From assembly GCF_026004055.1 (NCBI RefSeq), contig NZ_BPIJ01000003.1:62001-126000 (forward strand): a DNA stretch of 64,000 nt, in the 5' to 3' direction. Position numbers and translations under genes: made by a program. This DNA comes from Meiothermus sp. Lineage in GTDB: Bacteria > Deinococcota > Deinococci > Deinococcales > Thermaceae. Of the stretch, positions 39,856 to 48,175 are shown one piece after another. Under the pieces are notes generated by a model that was not told where the DNA came from, did not search any database, and worked only from the letters and a program-made list of their open reading frames with translations. Position 1 is the first letter of the stretch. Every line of letters starts with the position of its first letter.

Positions 39856-41103
39856 CTATCGGGGCACCCCCCGCACCGCCCCGGCCTGCAGCCGCAGGAG
39901 GAAGCGCGACTCGCTCAGTTTGCCCGATAGGTAGTCGCTCAGGTCACGCTCGGCTCTGCCGATTTGTACCATCCGGCTCAGGGCCCAAAGCTGCTCGAGG
40001 CGTATCTTCCCGCTCCGGCGCAAGGCCCCCAGCTTCTTTAAGCGCACATCGGTTTTTTCGCCCGCAGGCACCCCGGGGATGGCCCCGATGTTCACCAGCA
40101 AGGTCAACTGGGTATTCGTCAGGTAGCCTCCCTGGTACAAACGCAGATCCTCGGGCTGCTTGGGGCCATCCAGCCAGGTGGCCAGGGCATCGAACTGCTC
40201 GCCGGTGATGTGGCCAGCCAGCTTGAGGCCGGCCAGACGGCTCTTGGCCACCGCAATAGGGTTGAGGGCCAGGGTGTAGTCGTCGGGGCCGTAGAGCTTA
40301 GGGGTTTGCGGGGTGCCTTTACGCTGGCTAAAGGCCTCGACCTGCACCGCTGCATAGCGGTAGGCCTCCCCAATGGTCACATAGCCATCGCCGTTGGCAT
40401 CGGCCTTGCCCGAAATGGCCTCGAGCAGATAGGTGGTAAAGACGCCGCCCCCCAGCTCGGCATCCTCCCAGCTTGGCTGGGTATCGGCAGATGAGGCCAG
40501 CAGCACATTGGCCCCGCTCAGATCGGGTGGTTGCGGCTTGGCAAAGTCCTTGCGGCCCGGGATAGCAAAGCTGCGCGAGCCGGGGAGCGACTGCCCGCTA
40601 AAGCAGGCGTCCACAATCAGAATCAGGCGGCCCCGGCCCTGACCGGCCTGGCGCACCAGTTCCTGCACCCTGTCCAGAGGCAGCCAGGTCTCCTCGTCGT
40701 TGATCTTGGCATCGCTGGGCATCAGGGTGGCCTGCCCGGTGCGGCTTGGCATGCCGTGGCCGGAGTAGTACACGATCAAGGTGTCGCTCACCCCCAACCG
40801 CCTGGCCAGGTCGCGCAGCTCGGCCTCGATGGCGGTCTTGCTGGCCTCGGTGTCCAGCAGGATGCGCACCTTGCGTACCTGGCCCTTGTGGGGGTCGCGC
40901 AGGGCCTGGGCCATCTTGCGGGCGTCGCTCTCGGCATAGCTGAGGGGGGGCAAGGAGGGGGTCTCGGGGTAGGGGCGGTAGTTGTTGATGCCGATGAGCA
41001 GGGCATAGGTTTCGGGTTTGGGCATGGGCTGGGCCAGCGCCACGCCACAACCCACGCCCAACCCTAGCAGCCAGGCGAGGAATTGACCCCAGGAATGCCG
41101 CAT
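39856..41103 (-). CDS. Secreted caspase-like (peptidase C14) protein
   Basis: A 415-residue protein from the ATG at 41103. It has a signal peptide (MRHSWGQFLAWLLGLGVGCG region, cleaved near AQP) and a C14 caspase/metacaspase domain: YALLIGINNYRPYP at the start, catalytic histidine in VYYSGHGM (about H116) and catalytic cysteine in LIVDACFSG (about C167). A calcium-type loop DANGDGYVTIGEAYRYA follows. The C-terminal 150 residues are helical and unrecognised. Divergent from the CHASE2 gene across 280 bp. Substrate unknown; export implies an envelope role rather than cytoplasmic cell death. Confidence 0.88.
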   Translation of the reverse strand: MRHSWGQFLAWLLGLGVGCGVALAQPMPKPETYALLIGINNYRPYPETPSLPPLSYAESDARKMAQALRDPHKGQVRKVRILLDTEASKTAIEAELRDLARRLGVSDTLIVYYSGHGMPSRTGQATLMPSDAKINDEETWLPLDRVQELVRQAGQGRGRLILIVDACFSGQSLPGSRSFAIPGRKDFAKPQPPDLSGANVLLASSADTQPSWEDAELGGGVFTTYLLEAISGKADANGDGYVTIGEAYRYAAVQVEAFSQRKGTPQTPKLYGPDDYTLALNPIAVAKSRLAGLKLAGHITGEQFDALATWLDGPKQPEDLRLYQGGYLTNTQLTLLVNIGAIPGVPAGEKTDVRLKKLGALRRSGKIRLEQLWALSRMVQIGRAERDLSDYLSGKLSESRFLLRLQAGAVRGVPR

Positions 41104-41383
41104 ACCCAACGCCCCCAATACCGGCGACCCGCTCCGTTCCCCAGCGTTAGAAGAAGATTAAAGCAGACTAAGCAATGCGGGAGACAGCGTTAACCTGGCG
41201 AGTAGAGTAGATTCGTAGTATATCACGGTATCAACCCTTTTTTCATTGGCTTTTTGTTGTTCCGAAGGGCACAACTCGTGGTGTAACCGATACAAACCAC
41301 CACCAGATGTTGCGTTTCTAAAGATATGACCCTCTTTTGGCTGAAAGATGGGAATTCCATGCGCCGGGATGGGGAGGTGCCGG

Positions 41384-42706
41384 GTGGATAAGCCGGGCCT
41401 CCCATCCCCCCAGCAGCGGGCCCTCTCGCCCCACGCCCGCAAGGCCCTCTGGCGCACCGGGCTGGTGGTGCTGGTGATGGTGGCCTCGTCGTACATCCTG
41501 AGCAACAACCTGCTGGGGCCTTTTGGCGCCTTCATCAAGGGGCCGCAGGGGGCCTCGCTGGATCGGCTGACCCGGGTGGTGCACCGCTGGGGTTCGCCGG
41601 TGCCTGTGCGGGACTTTCCGCTGGTGGTGTTGGTGGAGCTCGAGCAGCAGAGTATAGAGCAGCTTAGCCCGGGCAGCTACGTGTTCAACCGGGGCCAACT
41701 GGCCCGCCTGACCCAAAAAATCCTGACCTATGCGCCCAGGGGTATCTTCCTGGACTTCGACCTGCGCCACCCCAGCAACGAAGGGGGGGTGCTGTCGACA
41801 GGCGACCGGCAGCTACTGGCCTTGTTGAAGCAGATCCGAACCCCCCTACTGCTACCCGACCCAACGGTACTGGGCCAGCCGCTGAATCGGCTGAGCCCCT
41901 ACCTTCACCCCGTACAGGCCCAGGTCTTCTACGACAGCGACGGGCAAACCCGCAAAATTCCCCGCCCCCTGCCGGGGCAGCCGGTAGCCGCCTCGCTGGG
42001 GCTGTATTGCCTGGGGCTGGGCATCGATTTACGGGACAGCCACTGCCAGCACTCGGTGGCGCCGGGCAATCCCAGGTCGGACGGTAAGCGCATCGTCTAC
42101 CGCGAAATCAGGCGCTTTGGTGCCCATGCCGAAGGCCGCCAGCTCTGGCCCCATCTGGTCGTACTGAGCGGGCTGGATTTGTTGAACGACGGGCTGGTGC
42201 AGTCCGAAGCCACCCAGGGGGCTTTGTTTCTGGTGGGGCGCACCTACCCCCAGGCCGACGACGTGCACTTTACCGCCATCGGACCGGTACAGGGCATCGA
42301 CATCCACACCAACGCCCTCCTGACCTTGGCCACCTACCGCAGCTTTTCCGAAACCCTGGGCTGGGGGCCGGTGCTCCTGGTGGTGCCGCTGGTGGTGTTT
42401 TTGGCCCTGTGGCTTACCTATTCCATTACCGATGGCTGGCTCAGGGCCAGCCGCTTCCAGGGCTTCGTGCAGGCCCTGGTCGAGACCGCCATAGCGGCCT
42501 GGTTTTTGTTTCTGGCCGGGGTGCTCATTTTGCAGTACTCCGGCCTTTTTCTGGACTACCTCTACCCGATTGTGGCCTTTCAGATGGGAACCTTGCTCTT
42601 GAAGCTGTTTGCCGGAGGGAAAAAAGATGAAAGCAAATCCAGCGATAGAGGCCAGGAAGTGGCCGACAAGCTCAAGGAAGTGGTACAGGGCACCGGCGAT
42701 GGGTAG
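41384..42706 (+). CDS. CHASE2-domain membrane sensor protein
   Basis: A 440-residue protein with an N-terminal transmembrane segment (RTGLVVLVMVASSYILSNNL), a large extracytoplasmic CHASE2 domain (VVLVELEQQSIEQL, ILTYAPRGIFLDFDL, the FVGRTYPQADDVH-like segment, GPVQGIDIHTNALLTL) and three C-terminal membrane helices. A short cytoplasmic tail ends the protein; the usual kinase, cyclase or other output domain is missing. The GTG at 41384 has GGGGAGG at ideal spacing; ATGs at 41348 and 41369 are alternatives. It overlaps the next gene by 8 bp, and its neighbour across the promoter is the secreted caspase-like gene. Confidence 0.85.
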   Translation: MDKPGLPSPQQRALSPHARKALWRTGLVVLVMVASSYILSNNLLGPFGAFIKGPQGASLDRLTRVVHRWGSPVPVRDFPLVVLVELEQQSIEQLSPGSYVFNRGQLARLTQKILTYAPRGIFLDFDLRHPSNEGGVLSTGDRQLLALLKQIRTPLLLPDPTVLGQPLNRLSPYLHPVQAQVFYDSDGQTRKIPRPLPGQPVAASLGLYCLGLGIDLRDSHCQHSVAPGNPRSDGKRIVYREIRRFGAHAEGRQLWPHLVVLSGLDLLNDGLVQSEATQGALFLVGRTYPQADDVHFTAIGPVQGIDIHTNALLTLATYRSFSETLGWGPVLLVVPLVVFLALWLTYSITDGWLRASRFQGFVQALVETAIAAWFLFLAGVLILQYSGLFLDYLYPIVAFQMGTLLLKLFAGGKKDESKSSDRGQEVADKLKEVVQGTGDG

Positions 42707-43478
42707 GGTGCTGCTGGCGCTGGTAGCCCTGGGTTCGCTGGGGCTGGCCGAGCAAGCCCGCCTCGAGCTCAGCGGCAAGGCCCGCCTCGAGCGCCCCGAC
42801 CAGACCCTCCAAACCTACACCCGCAGCGGCGGCCCCGCCCTGGTGCTAAACCTGGGAGCCGGCGACCGGCTGTGCGTCACCGAGGGCAAAGGACGGCTCT
42901 TGTACGGGGTGCGGGCCTTTACCCTGGAAGCCCGCGGAACCGCCTGCTTCGAGGTGGCCCGGCCCCGGTCGCTCTGGCAGAACCTGGTGGCCAGTTGCCA
43001 GGACATTGGGGTCTGCAAAAAACAGGCCGAAGTGGCTTTTATCAAGGAAGCCAAGAGCCGGGGCCCGGAGGGGAACGCGCCGGTGCTCCTGATACCCACC
43101 GACTACCGCCTGGAGACCCTTACCCTGGCAGTGGCCGGACAAACTCTACGCTTGCTCGAGGGCCCGCAGGAACTGGCCCTTATCGAAGCAAGCAGCGAGG
43201 GGTTTGCCGTTCCCAGCCCCATGCTCCGAAAGGCCACGCGGCTCGAGGTCAGCAACCGCTCGGGGGTGGTGGTGTACGCAGCCCCGGTGCGCTTTGTGCA
43301 GTTTGCCAGCGAAGTCACGGTAGAAAGCCCGCTCGAGGCCGCCTTGGCCCTCTGGCTCACCGGCCACATCGGCTACGCCCCCGCCGCCTACAGCTACCTG
43401 CGGTCTGCCGGCCACACCGAGCTAGCGGGCATCCTGGCCGCCCAGATTCGCCAGGAGTTCCGGGGAGTCTACCGCTAA
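42699..43478 (+). CDS. Secreted protein, FecR-like N-terminal part
   Basis: A 259-residue protein with a signal peptide (MGRVLLALVALGSLGLAEQ). The first 70 mature residues (ARLELSGKARLERPDQTLQT, LVLNLGAGDRLCVTEGKGRL) resemble the beta-rich FecR-type domain often found beside CHASE2 proteins; three further cysteines (FEVARP preceded by TACFE, ASCQDIGVC) are present. The C-terminal quarter is helical. The ATG at 42699 overlaps the CHASE2 stop (TAG 42704-42706), so the two are coupled. FecR assignment is tentative. Confidence 0.7.
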   Translation: MGRVLLALVALGSLGLAEQARLELSGKARLERPDQTLQTYTRSGGPALVLNLGAGDRLCVTEGKGRLLYGVRAFTLEARGTACFEVARPRSLWQNLVASCQDIGVCKKQAEVAFIKEAKSRGPEGNAPVLLIPTDYRLETLTLAVAGQTLRLLEGPQELALIEASSEGFAVPSPMLRKATRLEVSNRSGVVVYAAPVRFVQFASEVTVESPLEAALALWLTGHIGYAPAAYSYLRSAGHTELAGILAAQIRQEFRGVYR

Positions 43479-43628: not shown

Positions 43629-44453
43629 TCAGACACTGCCGCGATGCTTTGAAACGATACACTCGATTCGACGGCGCTCGCTATCGGCGAACGATGGGTC
43701 TCTCAAGAAGATGCTGCGCTCACTGTTTCTAAAGGTCCTGTTTGATAGCCAGTTGTTGCTTCCGATAACAACCCACTGACTATCACAAACCAATACCTTT
43801 TCATGGTTAGGAAACTTGGCGACATTGAGAAGCGCGGGGAACGAAGTACGCAACGCCAAGAGAAAGTCCAAAGCCTGCTTGCCGATATCGTTCAACTCAT
43901 GCCCCAAACTTGACTCCCACCCAAAGCCGATTGTGATCTTTACACCACGCATCAGCGCTTCACGCATCTGGTTCTGTATACAAGGATCCAACAGCGGTGC
44001 GCCCACCCAGCCAGAAAGGATTGCTACCGATTCCTTTGCATCTGCAAGCGCCCTTTGCAGTACGCTGTAGTGCTCATCTCCAGCAATGATCTTGATGGAA
44101 TCTGGATTCGATCTCGCAGCTGCAAACAGGACGTCCTTCCGCCGCTTAGGAGTTTTTGATAACGAAGTCAGCCTTGCCACCTCGTTCATTAACTCTTCAA
44201 TCTTTGCTTCCCTTTCTTTACGCATGCGTCGCTCGACGCGCCAATCAAAGATGAGCTGATCAATTTTGCGACACACCAAGTACGTGCCCCAGCAAAAGAA
44301 GAGCTGCACCAGGGCAAGAGGCAACGCAAAGATCATTACTGCGGTCCATGCCGTCCATGCGACCGCGATCCAGAAGGAAACTTTTCGCCCCTTGATCAGG
44401 TAGGACAGCGCGACGCTCGCAATAACGAACAACTGCCAAACGACAACTTCCAT
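43629..44453 (-). CDS. Membrane-anchored phospholipase D-like protein (cassette gene)
   Basis: A 274-residue protein from the ATG at 44453 (GAGG upstream). Two hydrophobic segments (about residues 5-22 and 28-52) precede a basic coiled stretch and a PLD-like domain. One HKD motif is seen: H-x-K in NHEKVLVCD followed by GSNNWLSNRT; a second is absent, so activity would need dimerisation, as in nuclease-type PLD proteins (Nuc). It lies between two attC-like sites and its composition is lower in GC than the surroundings. Anti-phage effector or nuclease is a plausible but unproven role. Confidence 0.8.
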   Translation of the reverse strand: MEVVVWQLFVIASVALSYLIKGRKVSFWIAVAWTAWTAVMIFALPLALVQLFFCWGTYLVCRKIDQLIFDWRVERRMRKEREAKIEELMNEVARLTSLSKTPKRRKDVLFAAARSNPDSIKIIAGDEHYSVLQRALADAKESVAILSGWVGAPLLDPCIQNQMREALMRGVKITIGFGWESSLGHELNDIGKQALDFLLALRTSFPALLNVAKFPNHEKVLVCDSQWVVIGSNNWLSNRTFRNSERSIFLRDPSFADSERRRIECIVSKHRGSV

Positions 44454-44475
44454 GAGAGGCCTCGACGGTTGGAAA

Positions 44476-44557
44476 GTTCTAACGTGTAGCTTGAGGGGCG
44501 CGGAGCCGGCAAGCGAAGCTTGCTGGCGGAGCGTCCCACTCGAAGCGATTGTTAGCC
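44476..44557 (-). other. attC-like recombination site 1
   Basis: An 82-bp imperfect palindrome directly after the stop of the GIY-YIG gene. On the minus strand it begins with the core GGCTAAC (44551-44557), continues AATCGCTTCGAGTGGGACGC, has a central stem GCAAGC / GCTTGC, and ends GCGCCCCTCAAGCTACACGTTAGAAC in two parts: CCCCTCAAGCTA and ACGTTAGAAC. The arms GAGTGGGACGC and GCGCCCCTC pair with extrahelical bases. This arrangement, position after a gene and core motifs match integron attC sites well. Confidence 0.82.
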
Positions 44558-44563
44558 GCGGAT

Positions 44564-45133
44564 TTAGCGAACCACGGCACGATGTTTCCTTTCCTCGACC
44601 CGAATCATCTTCCCTTCGCGCATGAGGAGGCCGAGCACACTCCAAGCGAGATAGTCTTTGGAGCCACCGGCGTAATCACTCTGAAGGCCAAGAGATTTTG
44701 ATGCGTCGGAGTTGGTGATTCCGTCTGGATTGGCCTGGGCAAGTTCAAGAACGGCGGCCTTTAGGAGTTCCAGACCAATTTGAGCCTTTTCGACAACGCC
44801 AGCGGGAACCGTAAGGTCGCGCCGAGCTTTAGGTGCCGCGCCCGATGGCATTACAGAATTTGTGAGGAGCCCACCTGTGTCTTCCGTACCAAAGGCCGCG
44901 ATTAACTCGGCTTCCAATTTCAATGCTTGTGCTTCGGTTAATTCATCGGCTAGTACCGCAGTCACGACTTCGTAGCCTTGTTCCTGGATTTCTGCAATGC
45001 GCCTTCCCTTGCGAGTTGCATCCACGCGCAAGGTGTGATCCCACGCGCGATTACCCGTTCCTTTACCGATATAGAAAGGCTTTGCAGGGGAAGTCCTTGG
45101 ATCTTTCAGTGCGTAAATGTAGTAGGGATTCAT
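44564..45133 (-). CDS. GIY-YIG endonuclease-like protein, LEM-3 type (cassette gene)
   Basis: A 189-residue protein. Residues 1-80 form a GIY-YIG domain: YYIYALKDPRTSPAKPFYIG (the Y-x-Y and Y-I-G elements), KGTGNRAWDH with catalytic-type arginine, and the metal-binding glutamate in ALKLEAELIAAFG, followed by LTN. The C-terminal half looks like a winged-helix or helical module (GITNSDASKSLGLQ, LLMREGKMIRVEERKHRAVV). The stop is 6 bp before attC site 1. A core GTTAGCC lies 27 bp upstream of the ATG, the expected left edge of the cassette. Confidence 0.82.
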   Translation of the reverse strand: MNPYYIYALKDPRTSPAKPFYIGKGTGNRAWDHTLRVDATRKGRRIAEIQEQGYEVVTAVLADELTEAQALKLEAELIAAFGTEDTGGLLTNSVMPSGAAPKARRDLTVPAGVVEKAQIGLELLKAAVLELAQANPDGITNSDASKSLGLQSDYAGGSKDYLAWSVLGLLMREGKMIRVEERKHRAVVR

Positions 45134-47896: not shown

Positions 47897-47943
47897 GCCT
47901 AGGGGCAGGATACCAGAGGGGGACGCAGGGGTCAGGGAATAAT

Positions 47944-47973
47944 CGCACTCTTCACAGAGGTGGTCGCCCACGA
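47944..47973 (+). repeat. Dispersed repeat E, copy 2
   Basis: Matches 17581-17610 in 26 of 30 positions (shared CTCTTCACAGA and CGCCCACGA). Together with repeats C2 and D2 it fills the 320-bp gap upstream of holA. No gene seen there. Confidence 0.55.
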
Positions 47974-48048
47974 GAACATGCGTCTGGGCTCGGCCCACGG
48001 GGGCTTGGGTTTCGAGTTTCCAGGCAGCCCCTGTTCCGTCCGGGACTA

Positions 48049-48175
48049 ATACCAGATTCGGGTAGTTCGTCACCGAATGGTGGCGAACTACCCCGACCGA
48101 AGGGAGTGCTCTAGGATTCAAAAAGATAGCCCCCAGGGTTGTTTGTTTTGAAGAGTATCTTTTTGAATCCGGTAT
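48049..48175 (+). repeat. Repeat C, copy 2 (inverted relative to copy 1)
   Basis: A 127-bp unit, ATACCAGATTC at the left and GAATCCGGTAT at the right. It contains the 14-bp stem at 48061-48092 (GGTAGTTCGTCACC, loop GAAT, with one G-U pair) and the 15-bp inverted repeat GGATTCAAAAAGATA (48114-48128) / TATCTTTTTGAATCC (48156-48170). Compared with copy 1 the stem shows a paired T-A to G-C change, which supports structure at the RNA or hairpin-DNA level. Confidence 0.8.

Follow-up and report, generated by a model that had tools for sequence, protein, structure and literature searches.

A secreted orthocaspase, a CHASE2 sensor lacking an output domain and a secreted partner: a candidate cell-envelope module of Meiothermus

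INTRODUCTION

By what route can a CHASE2 sensor act if no output domain is attached to it? This question is raised by three neighboring genes of Meiothermus sp. that lie within a 64,000-nucleotide stretch of contig NZ_BPIJ01000003.1 (hereafter the window). A gene for a secreted orthocaspase stands divergent from the gene for a CHASE2 protein, which is followed by the gene for a secreted partner, here called FECRL (Table 1). An earlier note on this DNA had proposed that the sensor may act through the extracytoplasmic protease or the secreted partner rather than a kinase. In a survey from 2012, Deinococcus-Thermus was reported to have no metacaspases (PMC3501461). We found no paper on the combination of a secreted caspase, a headless CHASE2 protein and a secreted partner in a literature search that left most subscription journals outside.

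RESULTS

The topology of the CHASE2 protein was analyzed by a scan for transmembrane (TM) segments. One segment was found before the sensor domain (residues ~33-51) and three after it (~342-360, 377-395, and 400-418). The C-terminal tail of 34 residues (~16 in Calidithermus) holds no recognized domain. When orthologues from nine other Thermaceae genomes were included, no cytoplasmic output domain fused to CHASE2 and no conserved domain or tail was found across the 10 proteins, in agreement with the earlier note, which had described the sensor as lacking such a domain. Furthermore, the protein is the sole Pfam CHASE2 of its genome, and therefore no CHASE2 kinase stands in for it elsewhere. The cytoplasmic loop between TM2 and TM3 contains conserved residues (T357, Y358, G363, S368, and R369), and this loop with the short tail, or the TM bundle, could contact an unlinked cytoplasmic protein. 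Such a contact would belong to an explanation in which the protease acts upstream, maturing or destroying the partner or the CHASE2 domain, after which the TM bundle signals inward to an unlinked cytoplasmic partner. The conserved loop residues and the general fact that proteases commonly control envelope signaling speak for this explanation, and the absence of a conserved cytoplasmic domain or tail speaks against it.

Table 1. Positions of the features discussed (window coordinates unless a locus is named)
Feature	Position	Strand	Remarks
Secreted orthocaspase (Peptidase_C14)	39856..41118	minus	Pfam PF00656, 2.4e-19
C-terminal helical repeat 2, residues 353-414	39862..40047	minus	gapless 62-residue match to repeat 1
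C-terminal helical repeat 1, residues 285-346	40066..40251	minus	gapless 62-residue match to repeat 2
EF-hand-type loop DANGDGYVTIGE, residues 235-246	40366..40401	minus	canonical; D235, D239, G240, and E246 invariant in 9 orthologues
Catalytic Cys167 codon (DACFSG)	40603..40605	minus	invariant in 9 orthologues
Catalytic His116 codon (YSGHG)	40756..40758	minus	invariant in 9 orthologues
Conserved core of divergent intergenic region	41156..41235		84-95% column identity in six species; ~70-80% at edges
CHASE2 sensor without output domain (TM1, CHASE2, TM2-4, short tail)	41348..42706	plus	Pfam PF05226, 1.1e-16
CHASE2 domain, predicted extracytoplasmic	41552..42358	plus	residues 69-337; invariant cysteines C221 and C233
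Secreted partner FECRL	42699..43478	plus	likely ATG at 42699; 259 aa; signal peptide; no Pfam family
CHASE2/TPR-CHAT operon of G012	L070 511-5628, contig C140		CHAT 4.2e-61

The orthocaspase most likely starts at its first ATG (41103), which gives a protein of 415 aa with the N-terminus MRHSWGQFLAWLLGLGVGCGVALAQ, a predicted Sec-type signal peptide ending ALA|Q. The N-termini of the orthologues, present in nine other Thermaceae genomes (two of them cut by contig ends), resemble this region. The catalytic dyad, the signal peptide and the calcium-like loop that the earlier note had pointed out were all recovered, and the dyad and the key loop residues are invariant in the nine orthologues. Asp60 and Asp165 are also conserved, with Asp60 aligned to the Asp of CVND in metacaspase 4 (AtMCA4). 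We take these residues to be the equivalents of the metacaspase S1-pocket acids that select basic P1 residues; by homology, the enzyme should cleave after Arg or Lys. Residues 27-283 of the AlphaFold model adopt the p20 caspase fold and match caspases, a paracaspase and a metacaspase with Z scores of ~18-19. The Z score was 18.9 against AtMCA4 and 18.8 against the bacterial C14 protein GSU0716 (~205 residues), and the fits include MALT1. On the question of a p10 part, the Peptidase_C14 match reaches residue 271 of 420 and the model fit to caspases reaches residue 283. The EF-hand loop may confer calcium control; however, p10-less orthocaspases are calcium independent according to a review (PMC5756287), which counts against a need for calcium.

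The C-terminal region consists of two tandem repeats, each modeled with high pLDDT as four helices. The repeats matched each other with a score of 74, compared with a maximum of 44 for shuffled sequences. Among nine sequences, the self-match scored 73-111 in all but a paralogue, where it was 57; for each sequence, the observed score exceeded those of all 500 shuffles. No convincing relative of solved structure was found for the repeat by sequence. One unit of the repeat also forms the C-terminus of a WD40 protein from a different Deinococcota family (E 1.3e-5; G054, contig C429, L189 1-1737), and the same genome carries a C14-DUF4384-like gene adjoining a second C14 gene (L126).

The start of the partner gene overlaps the CHASE2 stop by 8 nt. 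This overlap and the signal peptide of the product agree with the earlier note, but its name for the gene, FecR-like, was not upheld: no match to FecR (PF04773) was obtained with 12 orthologues even at E 10, and the window protein matched no Pfam or NCBIfam family. The partner is 81% identical to its relative in M. hypogaeus and 59% identical to that in M. granaticius, and four cysteines (C59, C83, C100, and C106) are invariant among orthologues. In its model (pLDDT 76), the signal peptide is followed by a beta domain (18-86), a poorly predicted linker, an Ig-like domain (130-203), and three C-terminal helices (211-253). A Foldseek search gave nothing below 1e-3, and the best VIA rows (TRAP, Z 6.9) were small beta matches of doubtful meaning. 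Residues 127-253 matched the C-terminal domain of MtxA (4z29) weakly (Z 5.3, 118 residues, 4.4 A), and comparison of the two sequences found no match. No copy of the partner was found on plasmids.

Next, each trio protein was searched for in 50 Thermaceae genomes. All three genes were common to the same 10 genomes, namely 8 of the 18 in the genus and both Calidithermus. Two of the 10 hold just the start of the caspase gene at a contig end, as a fragment with a TGA in G019 and as a cut gene in G007, so that an intact caspase is unproven in these two. An eleventh genome, of a sister genus (G001), retains a remnant of the partner, 49 to ~50 residues of its C-terminus (L056 6779-6952), with no CHASE2 or caspase nearby. 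As far as contig ends permit, seven further loci of the Meiothermus group have the same divergent gene order; conservation in relatives was a point on which the earlier note had made its proposal depend. On long contigs, the caspase end of the cassette borders an N-acetylmuramoyl-L-alanine amidase gene, and the other end borders a Na/Ca exchanger gene and holA. The exceptions are the window, with extra genes in between, G016, where holA lies elsewhere, and G012, with the cassette in another setting. The identical presence and absence in 50 genomes, together with the conserved cassette boundary, indicates that the trio is a real unit and not a chance grouping.

The extra genes of the window (43629-45133) are a PLD-like gene and a GIY-YIG gene between cassette and exchanger, and neither had a match at the loci of other genomes that were examined. 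In addition, the first 62 residues of the holA frame (47935-48121) match a repeat that is scattered through this genome and its relatives in dozens of partial copies, and holA itself probably starts near residue 66.

We also compared the site in genomes without the trio. The distance between amidase and exchanger was 22-400 bp in six of these (G010, G011, G013, G014, G015, and G020), and 1.7-2 kb of unrelated DNA lay between them in three (G009, G017, and G021); no trio remnant was found between the flanks in any of the nine. In a tree of three flanking proteins, in which several nodes are weakly supported and G012 was left out, the absences fall on about four or five separate branches. In Calidithermus, the caspase and one partner gene are retained beside holA. 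From the flank pattern, the scattered absences, this Calidithermus locus and the G001 remnant, we infer that the trio was ancestral and then lost jointly. Repeated transfer is a less likely origin because protein identities follow the marker tree and the cassette site is mostly fixed; G012, absent from the tree, holds the cassette in another setting.

The patchy presence would also suit a set of effectors for anti-phage defense or programmed cell death, and the caspase matched the PADLOC caspase model (1.5e-17) as well as, below its cut-off, the NCBIfam model of EACC1-associated caspases. Such a role is very improbable, since the signal peptide directs the protease out of the cytoplasm, no sensor of nucleic acids or nucleotides is found nearby, and identities that track the marker tree at a mostly fixed locus are unlike typical defense islands.

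The region between the caspase and CHASE2 genes has a conserved core, which contains an extended -10-like sequence, TGATATACT, on the minus strand, a possible caspase promoter. A promoter scan gave a hit at 41246-41217 on the minus strand that overlaps the core, within the number expected by chance. The conserved sequence occurs once in its own genome. Identity over the whole intergenic stretch was similar to or somewhat above that at four-fold degenerate sites, and conservation of the promoter region is thus suggestive at most. An RNA element in this region was considered and rejected: no Rfam family scored above its cut-off, and in the consensus folding just 4 of 66 pairs showed compensatory change. 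Divergent transcription alone would permit co-regulation without contact. Accordingly, the three proteins might serve one envelope stress function without touching, with the protease as a general degradative enzyme of the envelope. The divergent promoter region with its conserved core is what such co-regulation would use, but the all-or-none presence of the trio and the company that the partner gene keeps with CHASE2 and caspases in differing arrangements argue against it, and we consider it improbable.

These differing arrangements were then examined. In C. chliarophilus, five genes on one strand (L049 6164-14426) encode WD40-PEGA-C14, C14-DUF4384, CHASE2, partner and DUF4384-PEGA-C14 proteins, of which neighbors are 44, 6, and 16 bp apart or, in one case, overlap by 20 bp. 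Each of the three caspases in this operon has an intact dyad and a signal peptide that predicts export. The first four genes are present in C. roseus as far as the contig shows. The Calidithermus orthologue of the short caspase lies elsewhere, divergent from a second partner copy and without CHASE2. The presence of the partner both with CHASE2 and with caspase suggests that it is the constant element, an adaptor linking the two. G012 carries a second headless CHASE2 gene. Behind it come a gene for a secreted protein of at most 331 aa and one for a TPR-CHAT protein that also has a signal peptide; CHAT is a second caspase-fold family. The secreted protein of this operon (P0001) was tried as a homologue of FECRL and rejected, as just 29 columns align with a probability of 2%. 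On plasmids of other phyla, no CHASE2 was found in five annotated regions inspected for CHASE2-CHAT or CHASE2-C14 neighbors. Separately from the trio, G006 (L054 6031-14552) encodes a caspase-helicase fusion of 1012 aa (C14 with DEAD/Helicase_C), with a second short caspase-like frame nearby.

Outside Thermaceae, CHASE2 follows a FecR gene in four Deinococcota genomes (G051, G052, G073, and G096), and all three complete CHASE2 genes (G073, G096, and G097) carry HisKA-HATPase. Within Deinococcota, CHASE2 is thus paired with a caspase-fold protein as its output in Thermaceae, and with a kinase in other families. No kinase or regulator is encoded in the trio cassette or in the Calidithermus operon; the earlier note had named a kinase partner in a conserved operon as the result that would speak against its proposal. 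This absence, and the pairing of a headless CHASE2 protein with CHAT in G012, also tell against an upstream protease with inward signaling, which we regard as unlikely, although less so than mere co-regulation. The Calidithermus operon with its three secreted caspases and the CHASE2 kinases elsewhere in Deinococcota instead favor the protease as the operating partner of the sensor.

DISCUSSION

A functional link among the three genes is well supported. We propose that the trio forms a single cell-envelope module. As predicted from sequence, the CHASE2 protein would span the inner membrane, expose its sensor domain on the outer face and leave just a short tail inside. With this topology, the CHASE2 domain would share one side of that membrane with the partner and the protease. 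The secreted partner would bind the outer face of the sensor and the orthocaspase, and a periplasmic stimulus would thereby control the protease. This secreted caspase-fold enzyme should cleave behind Arg or Lys and may depend on calcium. Elsewhere in Deinococcota, CHASE2 carries a histidine kinase, for which the protease would substitute. We assign a probability of roughly 55% to this reading of one envelope module, in which a partner-held, sensor-controlled secreted caspase-fold protease stands in the place of a kinase. An even chance is given to the wider proposal that the output of a CHASE2 sensor is a caspase-fold protease, secreted as a separate protein and held by an adaptor that is secreted too, that signaling starts and ends outside the cytoplasmic membrane, and that this arrangement evolved in Thermaceae by swapping the kinase for C14 or CHAT proteases.

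Several known systems resemble the trio in part. Operons of FecR/LysM proteins with CHASE2 histidine kinases are known, as in the BiofilmReg operon of Burkholderia (PMC5192318), which likewise has a secreted partner gene adjoining that of a membrane protein with CHASE2; Deinococcota relatives share this FecR-CHASE2 layout. By contrast, the trio combines a CHASE2 protein that has no kinase with a partner that Pfam does not assign to FecR, and it includes a secreted caspase as well. In Magnetospirillum, MtxA accompanies a CHASE2 adenylate cyclase, and its crystal structure shows an Ig-like domain and TPR helices, which in the protein are preceded by a predicted beta region (PMC4439547). The FECRL model has the same order (beta, Ig-like, helices), and the protein is also secreted and encoded beside CHASE2, although the structural match is weak. 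The MtxA gene stands before its CHASE2 gene, and that system has a cyclase output with no protease reported.

A caspase-fold domain is likewise tied to CHASE2 in the caspase-CHASE2 fusions of cyanobacteria, including Trichodesmium (PMC2853523, PMC3501461), and EACC2-caspase proteins have a C-terminal CHASE2 (PMC8195603). The caspase of the Trichodesmium fusion is predicted to be cytoplasmic, whereas the Meiothermus protease is a separate protein, secreted and predicted to lie on the side of the membrane to which the sensor domain is exposed. For orthocaspases, of which MaOC1 is an example, cleavage after positively charged residues has been described (PMC6426788). The Meiothermus protein shares with this type (PMC6426788, PMC5756287) the p20 fold, the His/Cys dyad and the expected basic P1 specificity, but adds a signal peptide, an EF-hand loop and a duplicated helical C-terminal module.

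The trio bears on two questions: what bacterial caspase homologues do, and which ligands CHASE2 domains recognize. Within one genus, a caspase is retained or lost strictly together with a sensor and a partner. As a system of three genes from a thermophile with stable proteins, it could be rebuilt for a direct test of how a membrane sensor might control a bacterial caspase.
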